Shown in pieces: positions 14,445 to 30,182 of a DNA stretch of 32,099 bases (positions within the stretch are counted from its first letter, which is position 1; every line of letters begins with the position of its first letter). This stretch comes from Alphaproteobacteria bacterium (lineage in GTDB: Bacteria > Pseudomonadota > Alphaproteobacteria > DSM-16000 > Inquilinaceae). The DNA is taken from the NCBI GenBank assembly GCA_028281985.1, contig JANQIU010000144.1:1-32099 (forward strand). Reading direction: 5' to 3'. A program made the position numbers and the translations under genes. A model generated the notes under the pieces. It made no database searches, was not told the DNA's origin, and saw nothing but the letters and a program-made list of their open reading frames with translations.

Positions 14445-15236
14445 ATGTGCGTGACGGCGCAGCAGACAACGGTCACGGCGGGCCGACAGCCCATCCTGAG
14501 ATTGGACGGGCTGTCGGTTCGTTTTGCCGGCCGTCGGGAACCGACGACGGTGCTGGACGGCCTGTCGCTCGACGTGGCCCCGGGATCGATCACCGCCCTG
14601 ACCGGCGCCAGCGGGTCCGGCAAGTCACTGACCTGCCTAGCGATACTGGGCCTTCTGCCGCCGCGCGCCCTGGCCACCGGGCGGATCGTGCTCGACGGAC
14701 ACGCGTATGACGCGGACAACATCGGCGGGCTTGCCGGCCTGCGCGGCGCGACGGTGTCGCTGATCCTTCAGGATCCGGCGGCGTCACTGAACCCGGTCCG
14801 TCGGATCGGTGGCCAGATCGCCGAAACCGTGCGCTTCTGGCACCCCGAATTGGCCAAGCCTGCGATCCGGGACCGCGCGGCCGCCCTGCTCGACGCGGTT
14901 GGGCTTGGCGCGACCGACGGGTTCCTGGAACGCTATCCCCACCAACTCTCCGGCGGCCAGAACCAGCGAGTCATGGCGGCGCTCGCCCTGGCCAGCGGGG
15001 CACGCCTGGTGCTGGCGGACGAACCGACATCGGCCCTGGATCCGAAAACCGCCCACGGCCTTCTGTCGCTGTTCGACCGGCTCCGACGGGAGCAGGGCAT
15101 GAGCTTCCTGCTCATCAGCCACGACATGGACAGCGTCGTCCAATACGCCGACCGGATCTATCGGGTGACGGAAGGCCGGGCATCGGAGGTATCGGTCGAG
15201 GCCGCCAAAGAACCCTGGATCGAGGCCCTGCCGTGA
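14445..15236 (+). CDS. ABC transporter ATPase (DppD/NikD type, short)
   Basis: A cytoplasmic nucleotide-binding subunit powering the import complex. Walker A is GASGSGKS (54-61), the Q-loop is LILQDPAASLNP, the signature is LSGGQ (168-172), and Walker B is LVLADEP (188-194). The H-loop SHD follows. At 263 aa it lacks the C-terminal oligopeptide-transporter (oligo_HPY) extension and its cysteine cluster. That makes it closer in length to NikD than to OppD. The stop overlaps the next gene's start, giving translational coupling. Confidence 0.93.
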   Translation: MCVTAQQTTVTAGRQPILRLDGLSVRFAGRREPTTVLDGLSLDVAPGSITALTGASGSGKSLTCLAILGLLPPRALATGRIVLDGHAYDADNIGGLAGLRGATVSLILQDPAASLNPVRRIGGQIAETVRFWHPELAKPAIRDRAAALLDAVGLGATDGFLERYPHQLSGGQNQRVMAALALASGARLVLADEPTSALDPKTAHGLLSLFDRLRREQGMSFLLISHDMDSVVQYADRIYRVTEGRASEVSVEAAKEPWIEALP

Positions 15237-16078
15237 TGCCCGATCCGATCCTGAGCCTTCGCGACATCGAGAAAAGCTTCGACGTGCGCTCCGGCCACCG
15301 GCTGCGGTCCGGCGCGGATACCCGGCAACGGGTGCTCAAAGGGGTCAGCTTCGACCTGGCGGCCGGCTGCTGCCTGGCGCTGGTGGGCGAGAGCGGCTCG
15401 GGTAAGTCGACACTGGCCAGGATCATCGCCGGCCTGATCCGACCCGACCGCGGCGACGTTGTGTTCGACGGACACAGGCACAGCGACCGGCGCGACCGGC
15501 AGGCGCGCCTCCGGCTGCACAAAACGATCCAGTTGATCCAACAGGACACGCGCGGTGCCCTCGACCCCCGCATGCGGGTCGGCGACCAGATCTGCGAGGC
15601 CATGGCGATCCACCGGATCGGCACCCGCGCGTGGCGCCGAACCCGGTGCGCCGGCCTGATGGCCCGGGTCGGGCTGGACCCCTCGCTGGCCGTCCGCCAT
15701 CCGGGATCGCTGTCCGGCGGCCAGCGGCAGCGGGTGCTGGTGGCCCGGGCGATGAGCCTGGCTCCGCGCCTGCTGGTCTGCGACGAACCGACTTCGGCCC
15801 TCGACGTCGAAAACAAGGGCATGTTCCTGGACCTGATCCAGACCCTGCAGCGCGAAGGGGGGCTGACGGTCGTTCTCGTCACGCACGACCTTCGCGTGGC
15901 CGTCAGGCTGGCCGACCGGATCGCCGTGTTGCATCAGGGGTCGATTGTGGAATCGGGCGCTACCCTGCCGGTGCTGCGCCATTCCACCGACCCCCGGACC
16001 CGGGCGCTGACCGCCCACCTGCGGTCCGGTTTCCCATCAAGCGACCCGGTTCCCGCATCCCTGGGGCAGGCGTCGTGA
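15236..16078 (+). CDS. ABC transporter ATPase (DppF/NikE type, short)
   Basis: The second ATPase of the heterodimeric motor, 280 aa. Walker A is GESGSGKS (51-58), the Q-loop region is LIQQDTRGALDP, the signature is LSGGQ (159-163), Walker B ends in CDEP (182-185), and the H-loop is THD. Like its partner it has no cysteine-rich oligo_HPY tail. Two overlapping starts exist: ATG 15236 and GTG 15233, the latter overlapping the upstream TGA. ATG is taken here. A GTGA junction couples it to the following permease. Confidence 0.92.
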   Translation: MPDPILSLRDIEKSFDVRSGHRLRSGADTRQRVLKGVSFDLAAGCCLALVGESGSGKSTLARIIAGLIRPDRGDVVFDGHRHSDRRDRQARLRLHKTIQLIQQDTRGALDPRMRVGDQICEAMAIHRIGTRAWRRTRCAGLMARVGLDPSLAVRHPGSLSGGQRQRVLVARAMSLAPRLLVCDEPTSALDVENKGMFLDLIQTLQREGGLTVVLVTHDLRVAVRLADRIAVLHQGSIVESGATLPVLRHSTDPRTRALTAHLRSGFPSSDPVPASLGQAS

Positions 16079-17004
16079 GCTTCATTGTCCGGAAGAGCCT
16101 CCGCGCCCTCTTCAGCATCGTCTTCATCGTCACAGCGATCTTTCTGCTGATGCGGCTGGCAGGCGATCCGGCCCTGGCGATCCTGGGGCCGGACGATTTT
16201 CCGCCGGCAGTTCTGGCAGATTTCCGAGCCCTGTGGGGGCTCGATCAGCCGGTTTGGCGGCAATACCTGGACTATCTGGCAAACGCCGCCACCGGGCATT
16301 TCGGCCGCTCCTTCGTCGACAACCGCCCCGCGCTTACCGTCGTGCTGGAACGCCTTCCGGGCACGCTGTTCCTGATGGCAACGGCGCTGATCATTACCCT
16401 GCTGATTGGCGTTCCCGCCGGGATCATTGCCGCCCTGAAGCGAAACCACCCGTGGGACGTGGCCGTGTCCGGGGCGGCGGTGATCTTCCAGGCCACGCCC
16501 AACTTCGTCCTGGGCATTGGGCTGGTCCTGGTCTTCTCGGTCTGGCTGCGCCTGCTGCCCTCGGCCGGCACAGAAAGCTGGCAGCATGTCGTGCTGCCCG
16601 CGATCACCTTTGGCGCGTCCAATGCCGCCATCTTTGCCCGGTTCGTCCGGGCAACACTGCTGGACGTCTTGCGACAGCCCTACATGCTGGCCGCCGCGGC
16701 GCGTGGTCTGTCGCCGCGTATCCTGCTTCTGCGGCACGCGCTGCCGAATGCCGGGCTGCCGCTGCTGACCATCCTCGGCTTCTCGCTGGGGGGCATGGTG
16801 GCCGGGTCGATCATCGTGGAGACGATCTTTGCCTGGCCGGGCGTCGGCCGGCTGACGGCAACCTCCGTCGGCTTTCGCGATCTGGCGGTGATTCAGGTCG
16901 TGGCGCTGTTCACGATGACGGCGATGGTGCTGACCAATCTGGCGGTCGACCTGCTGTACACGGTCCTGGATCCACGCATCCGCCTGTCGGGCGGGCCGCG
17001 ATGA
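16075..17004 (+). CDS. ABC permease, DppB type
   Basis: An inner-membrane subunit of 309 aa with about six hydrophobic segments. Typical DppB features include the N-terminal RKSLRALFSIVFIVTAIFLLMR segment running into LAGDPA, the GLDQPVWRQYLDYL motif, and the EAA-like loop YMLAAAARGLSPRILLLRHALPNA that contacts the ATPase. The conserved GSIIVETIFAWPGVGRL segment near the C-terminus is also present. A GTG start overlaps the previous stop (GTGA). The frame is open far upstream but only as a shadow of the ATPase gene. Confidence 0.94.
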   Translation: MSFIVRKSLRALFSIVFIVTAIFLLMRLAGDPALAILGPDDFPPAVLADFRALWGLDQPVWRQYLDYLANAATGHFGRSFVDNRPALTVVLERLPGTLFLMATALIITLLIGVPAGIIAALKRNHPWDVAVSGAAVIFQATPNFVLGIGLVLVFSVWLRLLPSAGTESWQHVVLPAITFGASNAAIFARFVRATLLDVLRQPYMLAAAARGLSPRILLLRHALPNAGLPLLTILGFSLGGMVAGSIIVETIFAWPGVGRLTATSVGFRDLAVIQVVALFTMTAMVLTNLAVDLLYTVLDPRIRLSGGPR

Positions 17005-17825
17005 CCGCCCGATCGGTGTTCCTGCAGCTATGCGCCGCCGGACTGGCCGGGTGCGTCCTGGTCACGCTGACCGTGGACCTGCTGCCCTTGGCGGATCCGC
17101 GCGCCATGGACCTGCGCGCCCGGCTGCAGCCGCCGCTGCTCTTCGGTGGCGACTGGGCGCACCCGCTGGGCACCGACGAACTGGGTCGCGACATCCTGGC
17201 CCGGGCGCTGCACGGACTCCGGCTCAGCTTCGCCCTGGCGATCTTCGGCACGCTGGCCGGCGCCGTTCTCGGCACGGTGCTGGGCTTTCTGGCCGCCCAT
17301 TTCCGGGGCCTGGTCGACGACATTCTGATGATCCTGATCGATATCCAGGCAGCGATCCCCTTTTTTCTGATCGCGGTGATCGTGGTCGCCGTGTTCGGGG
17401 CCTCGTTCGCGCTGTTCATCGGCCTGATGGCCGTTTACGGCTGGGAACGATACGCGCGGCTGGCGCGCGCCTCGGCCCTTTCGGCCGCCGAACAGGGCTA
17501 CGCCGAAGCGGTGCGCGGGCTGGGTGCCGGGCCCGTCCGCCTCTACGCCCGTCATATTCTGCCCAACGTATCGAGCCCGCTGATCGTCGGCGCGACGCTC
17601 AACTTTCCGGAAACGGTGCTGCTGGAGAGCTCGATGAGCTTTCTCGGCATCGGTGTCCAGCCACCCATGGTCAGCCTGGGCAACATGGTCGGCTATGGCC
17701 AGGACTACCTGATCACCGCCTGGTGGATCTCGGCGACGCCCGCCGCCCTGATCTTCTCCGTCACCGTCGCCATGGCCTTTCTGGGCGACGCGCTCCGCGA
17801 CCGATTGGACCCCTCCCACCGATGA
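17001..17825 (+). CDS. ABC permease, DppC type
   Basis: The partner permease of 274 aa with an N-terminal hydrophobic segment, the HPLGTDELGRDILARALHG block that opens the BPD_transp_1 domain, and about five more membrane segments. The EAA loop reads GYAEAVRGLGAGPVRLYARHILPN. The C-terminal VLLESSMSFLGIGVQPP segment is typical of DppC and OppC. Length is normal, in strong contrast with the 788-aa OppC of the second transporter in this window. The ATG overlaps the preceding stop (ATGA), and the stop overlaps the next start in the same way. Confidence 0.94.
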   Translation: MTARSVFLQLCAAGLAGCVLVTLTVDLLPLADPRAMDLRARLQPPLLFGGDWAHPLGTDELGRDILARALHGLRLSFALAIFGTLAGAVLGTVLGFLAAHFRGLVDDILMILIDIQAAIPFFLIAVIVVAVFGASFALFIGLMAVYGWERYARLARASALSAAEQGYAEAVRGLGAGPVRLYARHILPNVSSPLIVGATLNFPETVLLESSMSFLGIGVQPPMVSLGNMVGYGQDYLITAWWISATPAALIFSVTVAMAFLGDALRDRLDPSHR

Positions 17826-18643
17826 CGAAGCTGATCCTGATCGCCGATCCGCATGTTCTTCCGCCGGGGGCAGCCGCCCACGGTATCCGCACCTTCGACC
17901 GGCTGGCACAGGCGTGCGACGACATCGCCCGCCGGCACGCGGATGCCGATGCGTGCCTGTTTCTGGGCGATCTGACCGAAGACGCGGCGCCGGCCTCCTA
18001 CGGCGCCTTCGCCGACCTACGGGACCGGCTTGGACTGCCGGTGCATCTGTCCGTCGGCAATCACGACGCGCGGGCGGCGTTCCTGGCCGCCTTTCCGGAG
18101 ACGCCACACACCGCCGACGGCTTCGTCCAGTTTGCCGTGCGCGTCGGCGACCTGCGGTTGGTCGTGCTCGACAGCGTCGAACCGGGCGTCCACGACGGCA
18201 ACCTGTGCGACCGCCGGCTGTCCTGGCTCGACGCCTGCCTAGGCGAGGACCGCCAGACCCCCACGCTGGTGGCGCTGCATCACCATCCCTGGCCCCTGGG
18301 CATGGCGGTCGACGACTGCATGCTGCGCCAGCCGGAAAGACTGGCGGCGGTGGTCGGCCGACACCCGCAGGTGCGCCTGATGGTTTCGGGCCATGTGCAT
18401 TGTGGCGCTTCCGGCCTCTGGCACGGCATCGCCTTTGCGTCGATCGCCGCGACCAACTACACGACGGCGCACCATCAGGCGGCGAAGGGGGAACAGGGGG
18501 ACCGGCTGACCCAGCCGGTGTCCTACACCATCCTGACCGCGGCGGCCGGGCAGATCCTGCTGCAAAGCCACTTCTTCGCCGCGGCGGGCACGCTTCTGCC
18601 GGCCGCATCACCGGCGCCGCGGGCAGCAGGACAAGGGGGGTGA
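17822..18643 (+). CDS. GpdQ/CpdA-like binuclear metallophosphoesterase
   Basis: A 273-aa calcineurin-like phosphodiesterase of the class III cyclic-nucleotide PDE/GpdQ group. All expected metal ligands are present at nearly the same positions as in GpdQ: Asp9, His11, Asp50, Asn80 with His81, a histidine in ALHHHPWPLG (His154 most likely), and His191 and His193 in SGHVHCG. No signal peptide is evident, so it acts in the cytoplasm. It could hydrolyse an imported phosphodiester such as a glycerophosphodiester or phosphonate diester, or act on cAMP like CpdA; sequence alone does not decide. ATGA overlap with the permease gene argues for a role tied to the imported substrate. Confidence 0.9.
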   Translation: MTKLILIADPHVLPPGAAAHGIRTFDRLAQACDDIARRHADADACLFLGDLTEDAAPASYGAFADLRDRLGLPVHLSVGNHDARAAFLAAFPETPHTADGFVQFAVRVGDLRLVVLDSVEPGVHDGNLCDRRLSWLDACLGEDRQTPTLVALHHHPWPLGMAVDDCMLRQPERLAAVVGRHPQVRLMVSGHVHCGASGLWHGIAFASIAATNYTTAHHQAAKGEQGDRLTQPVSYTILTAAAGQILLQSHFFAAAGTLLPAASPAPRAAGQGG

Positions 18644-18650
18644 CCGCATC

Positions 18651-19373
18651 ATGCTGAAACGACAGAACGGCGCCACTCTTTGGCAGCAGGTCAGCGAACG
18701 CCTGTCGACGCAGATCGTCGACGGGGTCTACCCGCCCGGTGCCCGGCTGCCGGCCGAGATGGAACTGGCCGACATGTTCGGCGTCAGCCGCAATACCCTG
18801 CGGCGCGCCATGGCGAAGCTGGAGGAGCAGGGGCTGATCCGGATCGGCCAGGGCCAGGGTACCTTCGTCAGCGGCGCCGTCCTGCCCTACACGATTTCCC
18901 GGACCACCCGGTACTCCGAGAACCTGTCCAAGGAAGGCCGGGCGGCGGCCACCGAAGTCCTGAAGATCGAAGCCACGACGGCAGAGCCCCTGATCGCCGA
19001 CATGCTGGCGATCGATGCGGGTGACCACGTGCTGGCGGTGCGGTCGCGAAGTTGGGCGGATGAGGCGGTCCTGACGGTCGCAACCATGCATTATCCCAGC
19101 GCCCGGTTTCCCGGCCTCGCCGAACGCCGGCGGGGATTCAAGTCGCAGACCGCGGTGCTGAAAGCCTACGGCATCACCGACTATCGGCGGCTGCGCACCT
19201 GGATCACCACCCGCCCCCCGACCGACGAGGAGGCACGGATGCTGCAGACGCCGCGGTCGCAGTGGGTACTGCACACCCGCAAGGTCGATGTCGATGCCGA
19301 TGGCGTGCCGCTTTGCTGTTCGGAAAGCTGCTGGGCCAGCGACAAGGTCGAGTTCGTCATCGAAAGCGATTGA
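18651..19373 (+). CDS. GntR/HutC-family regulator, PhnF-like
   Basis: A 240-aa regulator with an N-terminal GntR winged helix (about 8-75; ARLPAEMELADMFGVSRNTL, then EEQGLIRIGQGQGTFV) and a C-terminal UTRA ligand-binding domain (about 90-238). The UTRA domain begins YTISRTTRYSENLSKEG, resembling the start of PhnF, which regulates phosphonate and phosphate-related genes. No C-P lyase genes are in the window. It lies 7 bp after the phosphoesterase gene and is thus the last gene of the operon, suggesting autoregulation with the transported compound or its product as effector. GntR membership is certain; the PhnF likeness is a reading of the UTRA start and is less sure. Confidence 0.88.
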   Translation: MLKRQNGATLWQQVSERLSTQIVDGVYPPGARLPAEMELADMFGVSRNTLRRAMAKLEEQGLIRIGQGQGTFVSGAVLPYTISRTTRYSENLSKEGRAAATEVLKIEATTAEPLIADMLAIDAGDHVLAVRSRSWADEAVLTVATMHYPSARFPGLAERRRGFKSQTAVLKAYGITDYRRLRTWITTRPPTDEEARMLQTPRSQWVLHTRKVDVDADGVPLCCSESCWASDKVEFVIESD

Positions 19374-20553: not shown

Positions 20554-20569
20554 GGTTTCGCGGATCGTA
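20554..20569 (+). repeat. 16-bp direct repeat, copy 1
   Basis: GGTTTCGCGGATCGTA occurs here, upstream of the first predicted LAS peptidase gene, and again at 21537-21552 directly after its stop. The copies are exact over 16 bp and diverge immediately on both sides. In copy 1 the last seven bases are also one arm of an inverted repeat (20563-20579). Confidence 0.7.
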
Positions 20570-20692: not shown

Positions 20693-21535
20693 ATGAGACG
20701 GGGCATCATCACCGCGATCCGCGGCCTTGGATTCCTGGTGGCGCTGACCGTGCTGACGGCGGTCACCCAGGTCGGCGGGGTCATCCTGCTGGCGGCCTGG
20801 GGGATCGCGTGCCTGTGGCGGCCGCGGGGCAAGCGCGGCTACGCCACTGCGGGCCTGTTCGCCGCCCTCTATACCGCCGCGTCCCTATGGGTGGTCCCGC
20901 CGCTGGCGACGCTGGGCGGTCGACAGGCCCTGCCCTGCGGGCTGATCGAGGACAACTCCGTCGGGCCGCGCAGCCTGTTCTTCTGCGCCCTCAACCGACA
21001 CTACGCGACGCCGACCGTGGGCGCGGCGCTCACGGCTCTGGCCGACGACATGGCACGGTCGTATCCGGGCATCCAGGTGGCCTATCTCGACGCCAGCTTC
21101 CCGTTCTTCGACGGGTTCCGCATGCTGCCGCACCTGACGCACGACGACGGCCGCAAGGTCGATCTGGCTTTCTTCTACGTCGATGGGGAAGGCCGGCCCT
21201 CGGCCATGATCTCGCCATCGCCCATCGGGTACTGGGGATACGAGCAGCCGCGGCTGGGCGACCCGACGCCCTGTTCGGGCGACGGGCAGCGCTGGCTGGC
21301 GCGGTGGGACCTGAACTGGCTGCAGACGCTGCTGCCGGAACGCACGCTGCACGCCGAGGCAACGGCCGCGATGATCCGGTGGTTCGCCGGGCCGGGCTCG
21401 CAATACGGCGTGCAAGGGCTGATCCTGGAACCGCACCTGCAGAAGCGCCTGGGCGTCGAAGGCAGCCGCGTCCGGTTCTACGGCTGCGGTACCGCCCGCC
21501 ATGACGACCACATCGATGTCAGCATCTGGCCGTGA
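20693..21535 (+). CDS. membrane-anchored predicted LAS-type zinc peptidase, paralog 1
   Basis: A 280-aa protein with two N-terminal membrane segments (about 10-37 and 50-69) and a C-terminal domain that should be periplasmic, with conserved Cys82, Cys98, Cys194 and Cys265 suited to disulfides. The domain carries an HxxGxxxD motif (His150, Gly153, Asp157 in HDDGRKVDLAFFY) and ends ARHDDHIDVSI. This resembles the HxxGxAxD plus HxH metal site of LAS peptidases such as MepA and VanX, but the last His of HxH is Asp275 here. The LAS assignment is my inference from motifs. Gapless hand alignment with paralog 2 gives about 65% identity. The ATG at 20693 aligns with the paralog start; its ribosome-binding site is poor. 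Confidence 0.75.
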   Translation: MRRGIITAIRGLGFLVALTVLTAVTQVGGVILLAAWGIACLWRPRGKRGYATAGLFAALYTAASLWVVPPLATLGGRQALPCGLIEDNSVGPRSLFFCALNRHYATPTVGAALTALADDMARSYPGIQVAYLDASFPFFDGFRMLPHLTHDDGRKVDLAFFYVDGEGRPSAMISPSPIGYWGYEQPRLGDPTPCSGDGQRWLARWDLNWLQTLLPERTLHAEATAAMIRWFAGPGSQYGVQGLILEPHLQKRLGVEGSRVRFYGCGTARHDDHIDVSIWP

Positions 21536-21536
21536 A

Positions 21537-21552
21537 GGTTTCGCGGATCGTA
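21537..21552 (+). repeat. 16-bp direct repeat, copy 2
   Basis: Second exact copy of the repeat found at 20554-20569. It begins one base after the stop of the first predicted peptidase gene and lies in the 27-bp gap before the convergent serine hydrolase gene. Confidence 0.7.
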
Positions 21553-21562
21553 CAGCAACGCC

Positions 21563-22522
21563 CTACTCCACCGCTGCCCGGAACAGCGCCGCATCGAGGT
21601 CGCGTAGACGGTCGGTACCGGCCAGGCAGTCGGCGTAGAGGGTGACGACCACCCATTCGCCGCCGTAGCTGGCGAAGTACCCGCCGTTGCCGTCGCCGGC
21701 CCAGCACAGCATGCCCGACGACCAGAAGAAGGTTCGGCCGCGCACCGCGCGCCAGAACACACCCATGCCGTAGCGCGCGCCACCCATATCCGCCGACGGC
21801 CAAGCCGCCGGCGCGGCGCCGATCGCGGCATCCGGGCCGAAGGTCGCCCACACCAGGCGGGCGTAGTCGGCCGCCGACATCGACCATCCGCCCCACGACG
21901 CATGGGCACCCCATGTCCCGTCCAGCGTCGCACTGTCGATCCCGAGGGGATCCAGGACCAGGCGGCGACAGGCCCGATCGTAGGGCTCGCCGGTGACCGT
22001 TTCGATCACCAGGCCCAGGATGGCGTAGTTCTCGTTGTTGTAGGCGAAGGTACCGGCGGTCCCGAGTTGCGGATCGCGCCGCAAAGCCCGGTGCGCCACC
22101 CCTTCGGACGGCGAGCCGGCAAGGGTCGGCGCACGGCCCTGGGTAGCATCGGGCCAGATGCCGCTGCTGTGCGTCAGCAGGGCGCCGATGGTCTGTCCGC
22201 CCGCGGGGCCGGCCTCGGTCACGATCTCGTCGACCCGGGTGTCGGCCGTCAATCGGCCTTGCCCGATCAGCTCGGCGACACAGGCCGCCGTGACCACCTT
22301 GCCCAGGCTGGCCAGCAGCATCGCCGCATCGGCGGCCGTGCCACGACCGGCCGTGTGGACGACCGCGCCCGACCGCAGGACGGCCAGCGTCGCCGCATCG
22401 GTACCGCCGGCGTCGACCCAGGCCGACCAGGCGCTTTCGATACGCGCCAGGCGGGCATCCTGCTGGGCAGAGGCCAGGGACGGCAGGATCGCCAGGAGAA
22501 GGGCAAGCCGGAACACGCCCAT
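21563..22522 (-). CDS. class C beta-lactamase-like serine hydrolase, exported
   Basis: A 319-aa protein with a signal peptide (MGVFRLALLLAILPSLASA, cleavage near residue 19) and a penicillin-binding/beta-lactamase class C fold. The SxxK motif is SLGK (Ser72, Lys75) and the YxN motif is YNN (Tyr161, Asn163). A THSSGIW segment typical of the family lies between them. The usual third motif (HxG/KTG) is not obvious; the GGYFASYGGEWVVV stretch occupies that place. Candidates are a D-Ala-D-Ala carboxypeptidase or an esterase; resistance is not implied. ATG 22522 is chosen because GGAG lies 6 bases upstream; 22534 is an alternative. It sits between the two peptidase paralogs on the opposite strand, consistent with a wall-remodelling neighbourhood. 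Confidence 0.86.
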   Translation of the reverse strand: MGVFRLALLLAILPSLASAQQDARLARIESAWSAWVDAGGTDAATLAVLRSGAVVHTAGRGTAADAAMLLASLGKVVTAACVAELIGQGRLTADTRVDEIVTEAGPAGGQTIGALLTHSSGIWPDATQGRAPTLAGSPSEGVAHRALRRDPQLGTAGTFAYNNENYAILGLVIETVTGEPYDRACRRLVLDPLGIDSATLDGTWGAHASWGGWSMSAADYARLVWATFGPDAAIGAAPAAWPSADMGGARYGMGVFWRAVRGRTFFWSSGMLCWAGDGNGGYFASYGGEWVVVTLYADCLAGTDRLRDLDAALFRAAVE

Positions 22523-22706
22523 TGACCGCTCCATGTGTGGTTGCGTCGATCAGGACCGTTTTTTCAGGTCGTTTCGGACAATGGCCATACAGGGACCAGA
22601 GTTTGACCTCAAAGTACCGGCATATCTCCATCAACGTGGCAGCGATGACCCCGCCGTTTGGGCGGCCGGATATGGGCACGCCGGGCCGCGTAAGGAGATC
22701 GGCACA

Positions 22707-23561
22707 TTGTCTCGCTTGTTGATGGCCACCCTCCGGGGACTGGGCTTCCTGACGGCCGTCGTCGTCCTGACCCTGGTGACGCAGATCGGCGGTGCCGTTC
22801 TGCTGGGCGCCTGGGTGCTGGCGCGGATCTGGCGGCCACGGGGCCGGCGGTCGCTGGCAACCGCCGGGTTGTTCACGGCCCTCTACGCGGCGGCGTCCTT
22901 ATGGGTCGTCCCGCCATTGGCGCAGCTTGGCGGCCGGGTGCCGCTGCCCTGCACGCTGTCGGCTGACGCGCCCGTCCGGCCGCAGAACCCGATCTACTGC
23001 GTCTTGAACCGGCACTACGCGACACCGCAGGTGGGGGCGATGCTGACGGCCCTGGCCGGCGACCTGTCGCGGCGGTATCCCGGCCTCCAGGTCGCCTATC
23101 TGGATGCGAACTTCCCGTTCATCGACGGGTTCCCGTTGCTGCCCCACCGATCGCATGACGACGGGCGCAAAGTGGATCTGGCGTTCTTCTATGCCGGACC
23201 GGCCGGCCGGCCCTCCGCCGCCATCACGCCGTCGCCCATCGGCTACTGGGGGTTCGAGCAGCCGCGCCCGGGGGACCCGACACCCTGCGCCGGCGACCCG
23301 CGAACCTGGACGCTGCGGTGGGACATGCCGTGGCTGCAGCACCTTCTGCCGGCCCGCGACCTGCATGAGGGGGCCAACCGGGCCATGGTCCTGTGGCTGG
23401 CGAATTCCGGCACGCGGTTCGGCGTGGAACGGCTGTTGCTGGAGCCGCATCTGCAGCGGCGGTGGGGCGTCGAAGGCGGGCTGATCCGGTTCCAGGGATG
23501 CAGCGCCGCCCGGCACGACGACCACTTGCACGTCCAGATCCGGGCGTTCGTCGGCCGCTAG
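22707..23561 (+). CDS. membrane-anchored predicted LAS-type zinc peptidase, paralog 2
   Basis: A 284-aa paralog of the protein at 20693-21535, alignable without gaps over 280 residues (about 65% identical by hand count). It has the same two membrane segments and the same Cys82, Cys98, Cys194 and Cys265. His150, Gly153 and Asp157 are conserved, and here the C-terminal motif is complete: ARHDDHLHVQI with His273 and His275 as HxH. This resembles the end of MepA-type murein endopeptidases. Translation begins at a TTG (22707) with an excellent AAGGAG about 9 bases upstream, and this start aligns with the ATG of paralog 1. It is divergent from the serine hydrolase. A role in peptidoglycan cleavage is inferred. 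Confidence 0.77.
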   Translation: MSRLLMATLRGLGFLTAVVVLTLVTQIGGAVLLGAWVLARIWRPRGRRSLATAGLFTALYAAASLWVVPPLAQLGGRVPLPCTLSADAPVRPQNPIYCVLNRHYATPQVGAMLTALAGDLSRRYPGLQVAYLDANFPFIDGFPLLPHRSHDDGRKVDLAFFYAGPAGRPSAAITPSPIGYWGFEQPRPGDPTPCAGDPRTWTLRWDMPWLQHLLPARDLHEGANRAMVLWLANSGTRFGVERLLLEPHLQRRWGVEGGLIRFQGCSAARHDDHLHVQIRAFVGR

Positions 23562-23598: not shown

Positions 23599-25317
23599 TC
23601 ACGCCGCGCGGACGTCCGCCAGGAATTGCTCCACGAAGGCCTTCAGGTCTGCGGCCTGGTCGGACAGGCTGTTCGAGGCGGTCAGGACCTCGCCGGCGGC
23701 ATGTCCGGTCTCGGTGGCCGCCGACGAGACGCCGGCGATGTTGGTGGAGACCTCCTGGGTGCCGGCGGCCGCCTGCTGCACATTGCGCGCGATCTCCTGC
23801 GTGGCGGCATTCTGTTCCTCCACCGCCGAGGCCACCTGGGCACAGATCTCGCTCATCTGCCGGATCTTGTCGCCGATGCCGCGGATCGAGGCGGCGGTGC
23901 CGCCGGTGGCCTGCTGGATCTCGGAAATCTGGGCGGCGATATCATCGGTGGCCCTGGCGGTCTGGCCGGCCAGGCTCTTGACCTCGGATGCCACGACCGC
24001 GAAGCCGCGGCCGGCATCCCCGGCCCGCGCCGCCTCGATCGTGGCATTCAGCGCCAGCAGGTTGGTCTGCTCGGCAATCGATGTGATCAGGTCGACCACG
24101 TCGCCGATCTTCTGCGCGGTTGCGGTCAGCGACTGGACCTGACCGTCCGACGTCCGGGCTTCCGCCACCGCGACGTCGGCCATCTCGGCGGAGTTATGGA
24201 CCTGCCGGCCGATCTCCTCAATCGACGAGGCCAGTTCTTCGGCAGCCGAGGAGACGGTCTGGACATTCTGGGTCGTCTGTTCGGAGGCCGCCGCGCAGTT
24301 GGCCGACTGGCTGTGGGCCTGTCCGGCCATGGCCGACAGGTTGTTGGCGGTGGCCTGGAGCTGTTCGATCGCCGACGCCACCGTCGACAGCATGGTGCCG
24401 ACCCGTTGCTCGAACCCCCGCGCCAGCTCGTCCATACGGGCGGCGCGACGGTTGCGGATTTCCTGCTCACGCGCCGACTCCGCCGCCAGCTCATCGGCGT
24501 GGATCAGGCCTTCCTTGAATACCTGGACGGCCTTGGCCATGTCGCCGATCTCGTCCTGGTGGTCCCGGGCCGGGACCTCGACCTGCCGTTCGCCGGCGGC
24601 CAGCCGGCCCATGGTCCGGGTCATCCGGCCAACCGGGCGGGTGATCGATCGCGCGGCCACATACGACCCAAAAAGCACGCCCACGGCGATCAGGCCGCCG
24701 CCGCCGACGATCAGCCACTGGGACAGCGCATACTGACTTTCGGCCTGATCGATGATCTCGATCGAAAGCGCTTCGTGCGCCAACTGTAGGGCTTCGGCCT
24801 CGGTCTTGGTTGCCTGGTACTGCCCCAGTACATGCGTGGTCAGGAAGGCGCCCAGTTCCTCAAAGCCGTCGACGCTGTCTTTGCTCGCCTGCTCGATGCC
24901 CGGCATCAGTCCGGTATCCCGGAGCTGCTCCCAGCGGCGTTCGAGCCCGGACAGCTTCTCCGGGAAAAGCGCTCCCGCCTCGGACTGCCGGTAATCCGCC
25001 AGGATGTCGTCGATGCGGTCGATGGCCGCCGCGACCCGTTCGGTATGCATGGTGACCGGGTGGTCATGCAGGGGCGCGGCCAGCAGGTTCGGATGGTGCA
25101 GCGTGGCGCCATAAAGCTGCTGCAGGGATTCCCGCATCGCTTCGTTCACGTCGGCGATCTGCTTGATGGGCATCAGCGCTTCTGCGCGCGATCTCTCAAG
25201 CGCCGAGTAGGTGATCGACGTGGTCACCAGACCGGTGCCACCGACCAGCAGCAACGCCAGCAATGACAGCGTGATGAGGCCGAACAATCGCGGCCCGATG
25301 CGGATCTTCGTCAGCAT
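23599..25317 (-). CDS. methyl-accepting chemotaxis protein
   Basis: A 572-aa transmembrane chemoreceptor. A first membrane helix (about 8-32) is followed by a periplasmic helical-bundle sensor of about 160 residues, rich in Glu, Gln and His, which looks like a 4HB-type domain. A second membrane helix (about 200-222) and a HAMP linker ([20 protein letters not shown]) lead to the coiled-coil signalling domain. The kinase-control tip is canonical ([20 protein letters not shown], then [15 protein letters not shown]). There is no C-terminal NWETF-like tether. The ATG at 25317 (MLTKIRIG) is preferred over 25359 because GGGGGA lies 7 bases upstream. The ligand is unknown. Confidence 0.96.
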
Positions 25318-25359
25318 GCGTTCATCCCCCAGTGAGAACGCGGTTGGCGGGATGCTCAT

Positions 25360-25693: not shown

Positions 25694-26764
25694 CTATTCG
25701 GCGGCCGGCGCCGGCATCGGCGTGTCCCAGTAGTGGCAGGCGGCACGGTGGCCGGGGCCGACCTGGTGCAGGGGCGGTTCCTCCATCGCGCAGCGGTCGG
25801 TCGCCTTCGGACAGCGGGTGCGGAAATAGCAGCCGCTGGGCGGGCTGACCGGGGACGGCAGGTCACCGGTCAGGACGATGCGCTGCTTGGCGCGTTCGGC
25901 ATCCGGGTCCGGCAGCGGCACGGCGGAGATCAGTGCCTGGGTGTAGGGGTGGCGGGGATTGTCGTACAGCGGATCGCGCTCGGCGACCTCCACCAGCTTG
26001 CCGAGATACAGCACCATGATCCGGTGGCTGATATGGCGCACAACCGACAGGTCGTGGCTGATGAACACCAGCGACAGGTCGAATTCCCGCTGCAGCTTCA
26101 TCAACAGGTTGATGATCTGCGACTGGATCGACACGTCCAGGGCCGACACCGGCTCGTCGCAGATCACCAGCTTCGGGTTCAGCACCATCGCCCGGGCGAT
26201 TCCGATGCGCTGGCACTGGCCGCCGGAAAACTCGTGCGGATAGCGGTTGATCATGTCGGGGACGAGACCGACCTGCGCCATCCATTCCCGCACCTTCGCC
26301 TTGACCTCGGACGCCGGCATGCCGGGGTTAAAGGTCTTCAGCGGCTCGGCGATGATATCGCCGATCGTCATGCGCGGGTTCAAGGACGCCAGCGGATCCT
26401 GGAAGATGATCTGCATGTCCTGGCGGCGGCGGCGCATGTCGGACTTGCCCAGCGCCAGCAGATCCTCGCCCAGCCAGACGATCTTGCCTTCCGTCGCCGG
26501 GATCAGCCGCAGGATGGCCCGCCCCAGGGTGGACTTGCCGCAGCCGCTTTCGCCGACGATGCCCAGGGTTTCGCCGGGATGCAGATCGAAACTGATGCCG
26601 TCCACCGCCTTGATGTAGTCGCGGTGGGTGGCGAACAGGTGCCGCTTGGGCATGGCGAAGTGGACCCGCAGGTCCTTGACCGACAGGCGCGGTGCCCCGT
26701 GGGGGGCCGTCTGGCCGGTGGTGGTCGGGTCGAGCGCCGACGAGGCAAGGGCGGTATCGGTCAT
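25694..26764 (-). CDS. oligopeptide ABC transporter ATPase, OppF/DppF type
   Basis: A 356-aa ATPase. Walker A is GESGCGKS (71-78), the Q-loop is IIFQDPLASLNP, the signature is FSGGQ (179-183), Walker B ends in CDEP (202-205), and the H-loop is SHD. A full C-terminal oligo_HPY domain is present, with NPRHPYTQALISAVP and the cysteines Cys312, Cys318, Cys325 and Cys343, the pattern linked to an iron-sulfur site in OppD/OppF proteins. The start ATG overlaps the stop of the upstream ATPase gene (ATGA). The frame is open further upstream only as a shadow. Last gene of the operon. Confidence 0.95.
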   Translation of the reverse strand: MTDTALASSALDPTTTGQTAPHGAPRLSVKDLRVHFAMPKRHLFATHRDYIKAVDGISFDLHPGETLGIVGESGCGKSTLGRAILRLIPATEGKIVWLGEDLLALGKSDMRRRRQDMQIIFQDPLASLNPRMTIGDIIAEPLKTFNPGMPASEVKAKVREWMAQVGLVPDMINRYPHEFSGGQCQRIGIARAMVLNPKLVICDEPVSALDVSIQSQIINLLMKLQREFDLSLVFISHDLSVVRHISHRIMVLYLGKLVEVAERDPLYDNPRHPYTQALISAVPLPDPDAERAKQRIVLTGDLPSPVSPPSGCYFRTRCPKATDRCAMEEPPLHQVGPGHRAACHYWDTPMPAPAAE

Positions 26765-27798
26765 AGGGCGTCCAGGTGACAGGCTTTGGCGCGGCCGGGG
26801 CCGATATCCCGCTGTGCCGGTTCTTCGACCCGGCAGCGGTCGAAGGCATAGGCGCAACGCGGACGGAAATTGCAGCCGGATGGCAGGTGCTGGAGGTTCG
26901 GCGGCTGGCCAGGGATCGACGGCAGCTCGGTCTGTTCCGTGCCGGTCAGCCGCGGCATGCTTTTCAGCAGGCCTTCGGTATAGGGGTGCTGGGGACCGTA
27001 GAAGATCTCGCGGACCGCACCGCGTTCGACGATGTTGCCGGCGTACATCACCAGGACCCGGTCGGACAGGCCGGCGATCACCCCCAGATCGTGGGTGATC
27101 AGCACGATTGCCGTGTTCAGTTCGGTCTTCAGGTCGTGCATCAGCTCCAGGATCTGGGCCTGCACGGTGACGTCCAGCGCCGTCGTCGGTTCGTCGGCGA
27201 TCAGCATGTCCGGCTGGCACAACAGGGCGATGGCGATCATCACCCGCTGGCGCATCCCGCCGGAGAATTCGTGCGGGTACATCCGGATGCGGCGCTTGGC
27301 TTCCGGGATCCGGACCAGGTCGAGCATCTCCACCGAGCGCTTCTCGGCGTCGGATTCGCCCATTCCCTTATGCTGGACCAGGACCTCGGTCATCTGCCGG
27401 GACACCGTCAGATACGGGTTCAGCGAGGTCATCGGGTCCTGGAAGATCATCGACATATGGGCGCCGCGGATGCGGTTCAGCTTCTGCGGCGGCATGCCCA
27501 GGATTTCCTGGTCCCTGAACTTCACCGATCCGGTAGCCCGGCCGTTGGCCGCCAGCAGGCCCATGACCGACATGAAGACCTGGCTCTTGCCGGAGCCGGA
27601 CTCGCCGACGATACCGACGGTTTCGCCTTCGCGGACGCGGAAGCTGACATCGTTGACGGCGCAGACTTCGCCTTCCGGCGTGTCGAAGCGGGTGTTCAGG
27701 CCGTCGACCGCCAGGACGGTCGGACGCTCGGCCGCGGCGGCCGGCGGCGGGCCAACCGCCGCCGCTTCGGGAACCTCGGTCATACCTTCAGGAGCCAT
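26761..27798 (-). CDS. oligopeptide ABC transporter ATPase, OppD/DppD type
   Basis: A 345-aa ATPase with an Ala/Pro-rich N-terminal tail (about 1-26). Walker A is GESGSGKS (65-72), the Q-loop is MIFQDPMTSLNP, the signature is FSGGM (178-182, the form usual in OppD), Walker B is LIADEP (199-204), and the H-loop is THD. The oligo_HPY tail carries Cys309, Cys315, Cys322 and Cys340. Start choice is uncertain: TTG 27819 overlaps the upstream stop (TTGA), ATG 27798 is taken here, and ATG 27783 has a GAAGG very close to it. Confidence 0.94.
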   Translation of the reverse strand: MAPEGMTEVPEAAAVGPPPAAAAERPTVLAVDGLNTRFDTPEGEVCAVNDVSFRVREGETVGIVGESGSGKSQVFMSVMGLLAANGRATGSVKFRDQEILGMPPQKLNRIRGAHMSMIFQDPMTSLNPYLTVSRQMTEVLVQHKGMGESDAEKRSVEMLDLVRIPEAKRRIRMYPHEFSGGMRQRVMIAIALLCQPDMLIADEPTTALDVTVQAQILELMHDLKTELNTAIVLITHDLGVIAGLSDRVLVMYAGNIVERGAVREIFYGPQHPYTEGLLKSMPRLTGTEQTELPSIPGQPPNLQHLPSGCNFRPRCAYAFDRCRVEEPAQRDIGPGRAKACHLDAL

Positions 27799-27815
27799 GG
27801 TCTGGGGGTGTCGGG

Positions 27816-30182
27816 TCAACGGTCTTTCGGGTCCAAAGCGTCTCGCAGGCCGTCGCCGATGAAGTTCAGACAGAACAGGGTGGTGGCCAGGAACACGGCG
27901 GGGAACGCCAGCATCCAGATCGCCCCTTCCATGTTGCGGGCCCCGTCATCGATCAGCACGCCCCAACTGGTCATGGGTTCCTGGACCCCGAGCCCGAGGA
28001 AGCTGAGGAAGCTTTCGATCAGGATGACCTTCGGCACGGTCAGCGTCATGTAGACCACGACCGGTCCCAGGGCGTTCGGCACCACATGCCGCCGGATGAT
28101 GGTCGGCGTGCGCACGCCGCCGGCATGGGCGGCTTCGATGTACTCCTTGCGTTTGATGCTGAGCGTCTGCCCGCGGACGATACGGGCCATGTCCAGCCAC
28201 TCCACCGCGCCCAGGGCGATGAACATCAGGAACACGTTCCGGCCGAAGAACACCACCAGCAGGATGACGAAGAACATGAACGGCAGCGAGTACAGGATGT
28301 CGACGATCCGCATCATCAGATTGTCGGCGCGGCCGCCGAGATAGCCCGCACTGGCGCCCCACATGACGCCGATCAGCAGACTGACGCTGGTGGCGGCCAG
28401 GCCGATCATCAGCGACACCCGGCCGCCCATCATCACCCGGCTCATCAGGTCGCGGCCGTTGCTGTCGGTCCCGAACAGGAACAGGTGCCGTTCCACGTCC
28501 ATGGCCAGGGTCACCTGGCGCCCGTCTTCGCCGATATCGACGACGCGCACGCCGTACAATTCGGAGTTCGCCTCCAGGGCGTTCTCCAGGGTCAGCCGGT
28601 CGATCGGCGCCTCGCCGACGACGGACACAGCCATCGGCGCAACCTCTTGCGACCAGTCGGTCAGCGTCGCCCCGGCCCGGCGAAGCTGGCGCCGCAGGGC
28701 TCGGGCCGGATCGGCTTCGGCGAACGCCATGTCCAGCGCCATGCGGCGGCCGTCGTCGCCGATCTCCGTCGTCGTCACCTGGAACAGGTCGTCGTTGCGG
28801 GCGATCGACCGGACCAGCACCCGTTCGTCGACTGGCTCGAACCCGGACACGGTCACCGTCGACGGCCCGGCATCGAGCGCATAGGAGATCAGATCGACAT
28901 CGATCCGCTGCATCGCCAGATCGACGACCCCGGTCGGATCCTTGTCGTCGATGCTGAAGGACACCGTCATCTGCTGGCCGTCTTCGCTGACCGCGGCGGG
29001 TGCGGCGGAAAACAGCTCCGAGGCGCTGGGCGACAGGATGTTGATCAGGGCGTTGGGGTCGAGCTGGCCGTTAACCGCCAGGGTCATGGTCAAGGACCCG
29101 GTTCCCGGCTGCACGTCATCGACCTGCGGCAGGGTCCAGTCGACCGCGTCCAGGGCCGCTTCCCGCAGGGCCTCGGCACCGGCCCAGCTATAGCGTAGCG
29201 TCAGGTAGTAGCCGCCCTCGATGGCCGGAAACCCTGGTATGACCTGTTCCCGGGCGATCAGCTCCAGGTGCATCAGGTCGTCGACCTCGGCCAGGTTCTC
29301 CACCAGGACGTACTGGTCGATGGCCTCCTCGCCCTCCAGGGTCAGGGTCAGATGCCCCCCGGTCCCGGTGACGTCGTCGACCTCGAACCCGGTCCAGTCG
29401 ACCTCATGGGCGATGGCCCGGCGCAGCTCGTCGTCCTGGGCGAAGGTGTAGCGGACCACCATGCGCCGCCCGTCGTCGGCGACCGACTGGACGTCGCCGA
29501 TCAGCAGATCCGGGGAGGTGTCGAGGGACCGGCGCAGGTACCGGTCATCCAGCGGGTCGTCCGCTTCCGCGGTCACCGTGGCGACGCCGTCGGCATAGAT
29601 CCAGTCCACCGGCGCGGCATCGTACTGGCGCAGCACGCGGCCCAGGATCGACGGAACCGGATCCACCAGCACCCAGTCGATCTCGTCGCCGGGCGTCCGC
29701 ATCATCCCGGCAGCGACCGGGTCGAAGGCGGTGAGTAGTCGCCGGCCCTGATCTTCGGTGCCGAGGATCTCCACGTCCTCGATATGACCGCGGTGCACCA
29801 GGGTCGACGCGACGGCATCCGCATCGATGGCCTCGTCGGCCGAAAACGTCGCGACGATGCGGCCGTTGTCCATCCGCCAGTCGTCCAGCGACACGCCGGG
29901 CACGTCCACCACCCGGTCCAGGTGGTTGGCCACCGGCACCACATGCGGGTACGGATTGAAGCTGGCCGGCACCTTGATGTAGGCCTGATAGACCTGATCG
30001 TGGCGGTGCGGCGAGGCGAAGGGGCCGAAGACGCAGAACAGGGCGATGCTGAACAGAACGATCGCGCCGCCGACCGCCGCGCGGTTGCGGATCAGGCGCC
30101 GCCAGGCATCGGCCCACAGGCTGCGGCCCTTGATCTGGGGTTCTGCAAGGGTGCCGGCGTCTTCCGGGGTTACTGCGGTCAT
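27816..30182 (-). CDS. OppC-type ABC permease with giant periplasmic repeat insertion
   Basis: A 788-aa permease, more than twice the usual OppC length. Residues 1-60 are a normal OppC N-terminus with one membrane helix (about 37-56). Residues 565-788 are a normal BPD_transp_1 domain (LFGTDSNGRDLMSRV, then about five helices, the EAA loop EYIEAAHAGGVRTPTIIRRH, and LIESFLSFLGLGVQEP). Between them lies about 460 residues, predicted periplasmic, containing about six related units. A D in a [PA]-[IVL]-D motif recurs at 120, 212, 289, 375, 452 and 528, and a [DE]-D-G-R-R-like turn has its Gly at 146, 238, 323, 402, 478 and 554 (weak in the third unit). The frame is intact throughout, so this is not an assembly fusion of two genes. 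Confidence 0.93.
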   Translation of the reverse strand: MTAVTPEDAGTLAEPQIKGRSLWADAWRRLIRNRAAVGGAIVLFSIALFCVFGPFASPHRHDQVYQAYIKVPASFNPYPHVVPVANHLDRVVDVPGVSLDDWRMDNGRIVATFSADEAIDADAVASTLVHRGHIEDVEILGTEDQGRRLLTAFDPVAAGMMRTPGDEIDWVLVDPVPSILGRVLRQYDAAPVDWIYADGVATVTAEADDPLDDRYLRRSLDTSPDLLIGDVQSVADDGRRMVVRYTFAQDDELRRAIAHEVDWTGFEVDDVTGTGGHLTLTLEGEEAIDQYVLVENLAEVDDLMHLELIAREQVIPGFPAIEGGYYLTLRYSWAGAEALREAALDAVDWTLPQVDDVQPGTGSLTMTLAVNGQLDPNALINILSPSASELFSAAPAAVSEDGQQMTVSFSIDDKDPTGVVDLAMQRIDVDLISYALDAGPSTVTVSGFEPVDERVLVRSIARNDDLFQVTTTEIGDDGRRMALDMAFAEADPARALRRQLRRAGATLTDWSQEVAPMAVSVVGEAPIDRLTLENALEANSELYGVRVVDIGEDGRQVTLAMDVERHLFLFGTDSNGRDLMSRVMMGGRVSLMIGLAATSVSLLIGVMWGASAGYLGGRADNLMMRIVDILYSLPFMFFVILLVVFFGRNVFLMFIALGAVEWLDMARIVRGQTLSIKRKEYIEAAHAGGVRTPTIIRRHVVPNALGPVVVYMTLTVPKVILIESFLSFLGLGVQEPMTSWGVLIDDGARNMEGAIWMLAFPAVFLATTLFCLNFIGDGLRDALDPKDR

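Follow-up and report, generated by a model that had tools for sequence, protein, structure and literature searches.

A tandem pair of putative membrane-tethered, M74-like LAS metallopeptidases in an alphaproteobacterial genome, one with an altered predicted zinc site

The window analysed here, a stretch of 32,099 nucleotides from a draft alphaproteobacterial assembly (4.3 Mb, 361 contigs, 86% complete), contains two similar genes on the plus strand with a third gene between them on the minus strand. This arrangement raises the question of what the two similar proteins do, and whether the protein encoded between them has a share in it. A reading made from the sequence only had proposed that two paralogous LAS-type peptidases and a serine hydrolase constitute a local wall-remodelling module that arose by an old tandem duplication. 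The three genes are as follows.

20693..21535 (+): copy A, a predicted membrane-anchored, M74-like LAS protein with an altered zinc site (HxxHxD); ATG start, 280 aa, open frame, GC3 0.90
21563..22534 (-): the middle hydrolase, a predicted exported serine hydrolase of the S12/beta-lactamase family; 323 aa, Pfam PF00144 at E 2.1e-27
22707..23561 (+): copy B, a predicted membrane-anchored, M74-like LAS protein with a complete predicted zinc site; 284 aa, TTG start

All three are open frames with homologues, and the TTG start of copy B is preceded by AAGGAG. A scan for promoters and terminators gave no signal above chance, and an Rfam search gave no match. Pairwise alignment of copy A and copy B yields 64% identity over 280 columns without a gap (66% in the anchor and 64% in the domain), which agrees with the earlier hand count of about 65%, and in a whole-genome search the two match at 65% with an E-value of 7e-126, far beyond chance. 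The pair is an ordinary duplication inside a real, unnamed family, and the view that the duplication is old is borne out by the alignment, the tree and the dN/dS analysis.

The explanation favoured here, to which we would assign as a whole a probability of about two in three, is that of a tethered MepA-type LAS pair in which copy B is a cross-link cutter, copy A is altered, and the hydrolase is a bystander. The two gene products would be LAS metallopeptidases similar in type to MepA (M74) and anchored in the inner membrane, whereby three N-terminal membrane segments would hold a zinc domain of about 200 residues, with four conserved cysteines, in the periplasm. Copy B would bind zinc via H150, D157 and H275, with H273 as the catalytic base, and would most likely cut peptidoglycan peptide cross-links near the membrane face as a DD- or LD-endopeptidase. 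Copy A would have kept the fold and an open frame since the duplication, with an Asp at the position of the third zinc ligand, and may be an enzyme of low or changed activity, or may bind without catalysis.

The fold and the predicted metal site

AlphaFold2 models built with 62 homologues each are of high confidence for both proteins (copy B, pLDDT 94.6 and pTM 0.90; copy A, pLDDT 93.6 and pTM 0.89). When the model of copy B was compared with the PDB by Foldseek, the top five matches were MepA chains (E 6e-5 to 5e-4, probability 1.00) and nearly all the remaining ones were Hedgehog N-domains, which are also LAS folds; for copy A, MepA was likewise best (E 5.6e-5, probability 1.00) and filled the top five, followed mainly by Hedgehog. 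The superposition is partial, as moderate TM-scores (0.40-0.51) and an rmsd of 7-10 A show; in sequence, identity with MepA is about 15%. YcbK/MepK and VanX, of the M15 group, belong to the LAS superfamily and carry HxxxxxxD and HxH. Both had been named with MepA as proteins for comparison, and neither occurs among the 38 hits that copy B gave in the PDB; MepA is clearly nearer. The sequence-only reading had guessed an LAS fold and held that a predicted structure lacking it would count against the idea; the fold is present in both models, with MepA and Hedgehog as the top folds at the TM-scores given above, and matches to family models among the relatives and a profile-profile comparison point the same way.

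No Pfam or NCBIfam model matched copy A or copy B, and a PDB sequence search with family profiles returned nothing relevant. Among 62 family members, 16 match Pfam PF03411 (Peptidase_M74) weakly when E-values of up to 1 are admitted, the best being 2.2e-5, and neither window copy matches it even at that limit, so that the family is M74-related rather than a member by the PF03411 cut-off. The NCBIfam model for penicillin-insensitive murein endopeptidase is matched by eight members (best 7e-6). Alignment of the family against a set of 16 M74 proteins from the same order by hhalign gave an E-value of 2.3e-5 over 171 columns (probability 76%), with both motifs in register.

Within the family, H147, H150, G153, D157, H270 and H273 are invariant and H275 is nearly so; in the 16 M74 sequences, the invariant residues are H138, H141, G144, D148, H234, H237 and H239. 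The spacing of the two motifs, H-x2-H-x2-G-x3-D and H-x2-H-(x-H), is identical in the family and the M74 set. LAS enzymes hold their zinc by one His, one Asp and a second, distal His, and the HxH motif supplies the catalytic residue with its first His (PMC4087270). By this rule copy B would have a full site.

H147, H150, D157, H270, H273, H275: predicted zinc-site residues of copy B

HxxxxxxD with a distal HxH is found in copy B and in 84 of 85 family members, whereas copy A has HxD; likewise the M74 motif, HxxHxxGxxxD ... HxxHxH, is present in copy B, but its second half reads HxxHxD in copy A. The motifs that had been pointed out from the sequence (four cysteines, C82, C98, C194 and C265; HxxGxxxD at H150-D157; DDHx[HD] at 272-275) were all found in both copies and are kept in 84-85 of 85 family members, the exception being Asp 275 in copy A. 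The segments SPIGY, RWD and EPH are conserved in the family and missing from the M74 set.

MepA (penicillin-insensitive murein endopeptidase, PF03411; PDB 1U10, 1TZP) is thus the system that the family resembles in fold, in the spacing of HxxHxxGxxxD and HxxHxH, and in its likely zinc LAS chemistry. MepA, however, is soluble and exported to the periplasm, whereas in the family three membrane segments, themselves conserved, precede the domain, and the four conserved cysteines and the family's own segments are added; in addition, copy A lacks the last His and both window copies fall below PF03411. From sequence and models, the most fitting description of the family protein is that of an M74-like LAS metallopeptidase tethered to the membrane.

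Divergence of copy A

The two copies had been treated as equal at the [HD] position of the C-terminal motif. This overlooked that the position is the presumed third zinc ligand, and the copies, which differ there, are therefore not equivalent.

21515..21517 (+): GAT codon encoding Asp275 in copy A; the equivalent position is the zinc-ligand His in the MepA HxH, and 84 of 85 family members have His there

The counterpart of residue 275 is invariant in the 16 M74 sequences, and H275D occurs in copy A only among the 85 family members. Nearby, copy A has further changes at conserved sites (Q263Y, A267T), and over 65 conserved columns it departs at nine, compared with three for copy B and four for the nearest relative. 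An Asp in place of a zinc-binding His together with nine broken columns suggests that copy A is probably catalytically altered. Tree branch lengths (0.42 for copy A versus 0.18) also mark its divergence. The dN/dS values are given pairwise only, as branch-wise estimates from three sequences are too noisy: between copy A and copy B the ratio is about 0.46, below 1, and for the LAS part it is about 0.53, versus 0.21 between copy B and the nearest relative. These values and the divergence of copy A fit a relaxed but still present constraint. With regard to timing, dS is 0.62 between the copies and 0.88 between copy B and the nearest relative, which suggests that the duplication postdates the split from that relative; the tree disagrees, since it groups copy A with the nearest relative and not with copy B, although without firm support (96/69).

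A narrower question, compatible with the explanation favoured here, is whether copy A still works, with Asp275 acting as a metal ligand (His/Asp/Asp) and the activity changed. The open frame, the GC3 of 0.90, the fold retained at high confidence, the pairwise dN/dS below 1, and the retention of the catalytic His273 and the remaining ligands would all fit such a protein, but the conservation of His275 in all other relatives, the accompanying Q263Y and A267T, and the lack of any family precedent for Asp at this position weigh on the other side, and we would put the chance somewhat short of even. It is rather unlikely that copy A is a dedicated pseudoenzyme, one that has lost a zinc ligand and now regulates an active copy B or competes with it at a shared site in the wall.

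Copy A is also bracketed by a perfect direct repeat.

20554..20569 (+): 16-bp direct repeat GGTTTCGCGGATCGTA, left of copy A
21537..21552 (+): 16-bp direct repeat GGTTTCGCGGATCGTA, right of copy A

These are the only two exact copies in the 4.3 Mb assembly, and the repeat could mark a past insertion or serve in regulation. The left repeat runs into a small dyad, GATCGTA-ATC-TACGATC.

Distribution of the family and the predicted substrate

One scan of species genomes returned 164 relatives, nearly all with record titles from the Alphaproteobacteria, and 80 of these were retained. Named carriers include Rhizobium, Ensifer, Shinella, Agrobacterium, Caulobacter, Rhodobacter, Devosia, Kiloniella, Thalassospira, Paracoccus and others. 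The distribution is nevertheless sparse: of 385 genomes drawn from across the class, 9 carry the family, and every sampled carrier has one copy except the genome of the window; next to the other family members found there was no tandem partner. Three plasmid-borne copies are annotated only as 'hypothetical protein', and a search of openly accessible literature found no paper on the family and no assay of any member. No significant relatives were found in a viral fold library, phage records or viral contigs.

By resemblance to its M74 relatives, the family protein is probably a periplasmic peptidoglycan endopeptidase, whose likely substrate would be peptide cross-links. The alternative is that the LAS domain is real but that its substrate is something else, such as an envelope protein or a lipid-linked peptide, or that it is a Hedgehog-like zinc domain that binds without cutting. 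The Sonic Hedgehog N-terminal domain, which has the LAS fold and is the second-best structural match to the copies (probability up to 0.97), is an example of an LAS domain without confirmed enzymatic activity (PMC4102407); it belongs, however, to a secreted animal ligand, and only about 85 residues align with the window copies. That Hedgehog domains are the next best folds, that identity to MepA is so low, that the M74 set lacks SPIGY, RWD and EPH, and that a true M74 enzyme is also encoded in the genome of the window would all agree with another substrate. So would the surroundings of the family genes: among 43 loci there was no enrichment for wall genes, the neighbours being mostly metabolic and housekeeping genes with no common theme. 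Against this, MepA is the closest fold, almost all members keep every catalytic residue, the catalytic His among them, and one relative adjoins a lytic transglycosylase gene; a different substrate, or none, is a minority prospect at perhaps the odds of an outsider, and cross-link cutting by copy B is preferred.

Conserved neighbourhood was dropped as a clue to function, as there is neither conservation across genera nor wall-gene enrichment. One locus offers a lead only. On the Agrobacterium tumefaciens plasmid pAt (CP048471.1, 2213-7522) the family gene lies between type I secretion genes (an ABC permease/ATPase and an HlyD-type adaptor) and the lytic transglycosylase gene. In the window, a methyl-accepting chemotaxis protein gene (23599-25359, -) adjoins the family gene, and such a gene also stands beside the family gene in a relative that shares the window's taxonomic family (51-1067, +), which is probably a coincidence. 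Further out in the window are oligopeptide-type ABC transporter genes, a GntR/UTRA regulator and a calcineurin-like phosphoesterase (14445-19373) and, on the other side of the locus, two more oligopeptide ABC ATPases (25694-27819).

The membrane anchor and the gene between the copies

The N-terminal anchors of the two copies are as follows.

22707..22931 (+): N-terminal membrane anchor of copy B, from AF2 secondary structure, hydropathy and charge profile
20693..20917 (+): N-terminal membrane anchor of copy A, laid out as in copy B, from AF2 model, hydropathy and charge profile

The anchor helices in the AF2 model span about residues 2-25, 28-42 and 45-74, with TQxGG conserved at the first turn. 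Across the family, K/R number 1.9 at the N-terminus and 3.6 in loop 39-52, which has almost no acidic residue, and are almost absent from turn 24-31. If the positive-inside rule holds, the basic N-terminus and loop 39-52 are cytoplasmic, so that segments 1 and 2 would form a hairpin and segment 3 would exit, placing the LAS domain in the periplasm after three membrane crossings. Two helices had been counted originally, which would leave the catalytic domain in the cytoplasm; although helix 2 is short and segments 1 and 2 might be a single kinked 34-residue stretch, such a layout would expose the most basic loop on the outer side and leave the domain, with its four conserved cysteines, in the cytoplasm, and is very improbable.

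The middle hydrolase was described from the sequence as an exported SxxK/YxN enzyme on the opposite strand, and this description holds: S76-L-G-K79 and Y165-N-N167 are present, as are an export-type N-terminus and the PF00144 match, and the protein has relatives in the PDB. It shares SxxK and YxN with the S12/class C beta-lactamase family (PF00144; R61 DD-carboxypeptidase, ClbP), but its third motif, at residues 271-274, is WSSG and not H[ST]G or KTG. By eye, WHAG and WHTG seem to occupy this place in two relatives, so that the third motif of the hydrolase looks degenerate.

The proposal that copy A, the hydrolase and copy B work together as a wall-remodelling module draws on their adjacency, on all three being predicted envelope proteins and on both folds being known among peptidoglycan enzymes, but it fares poorly in comparison with other genomes and is highly unlikely. 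The regions flanking the other family loci examined contained no homologue of the hydrolase, and close hydrolase relatives occurred in only three of 289 genomes of the class, in which no family member was found. The triplet is thus private to this genome as far as seen, which leaves a shared function unsupported. Moreover, the hydrolase is transcribed towards copy A and away from copy B, and three genes that are not co-directional do not form a simple operon; on orientation and the comparative data an operon was rejected. The degenerate third motif of the hydrolase also speaks against the module. The hydrolase appears to be an unrelated bystander between the copies.

The tethered-pair reading would provide a testable function for a conserved, unnamed alphaproteobacterial membrane protein, and would extend MepA-type enzymes to membrane-tethered forms; copy A and copy B would offer a natural comparison, since one of them has lost a residue of the active site. 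Growth in Rhizobiales is from a single pole, and LD cross-linking is described as important for the polar growth of Agrobacterium (PMC8546619, PMC11527210); on that account an additional enzyme that cuts cross-links while tethered to the membrane would deserve attention in these bacteria.
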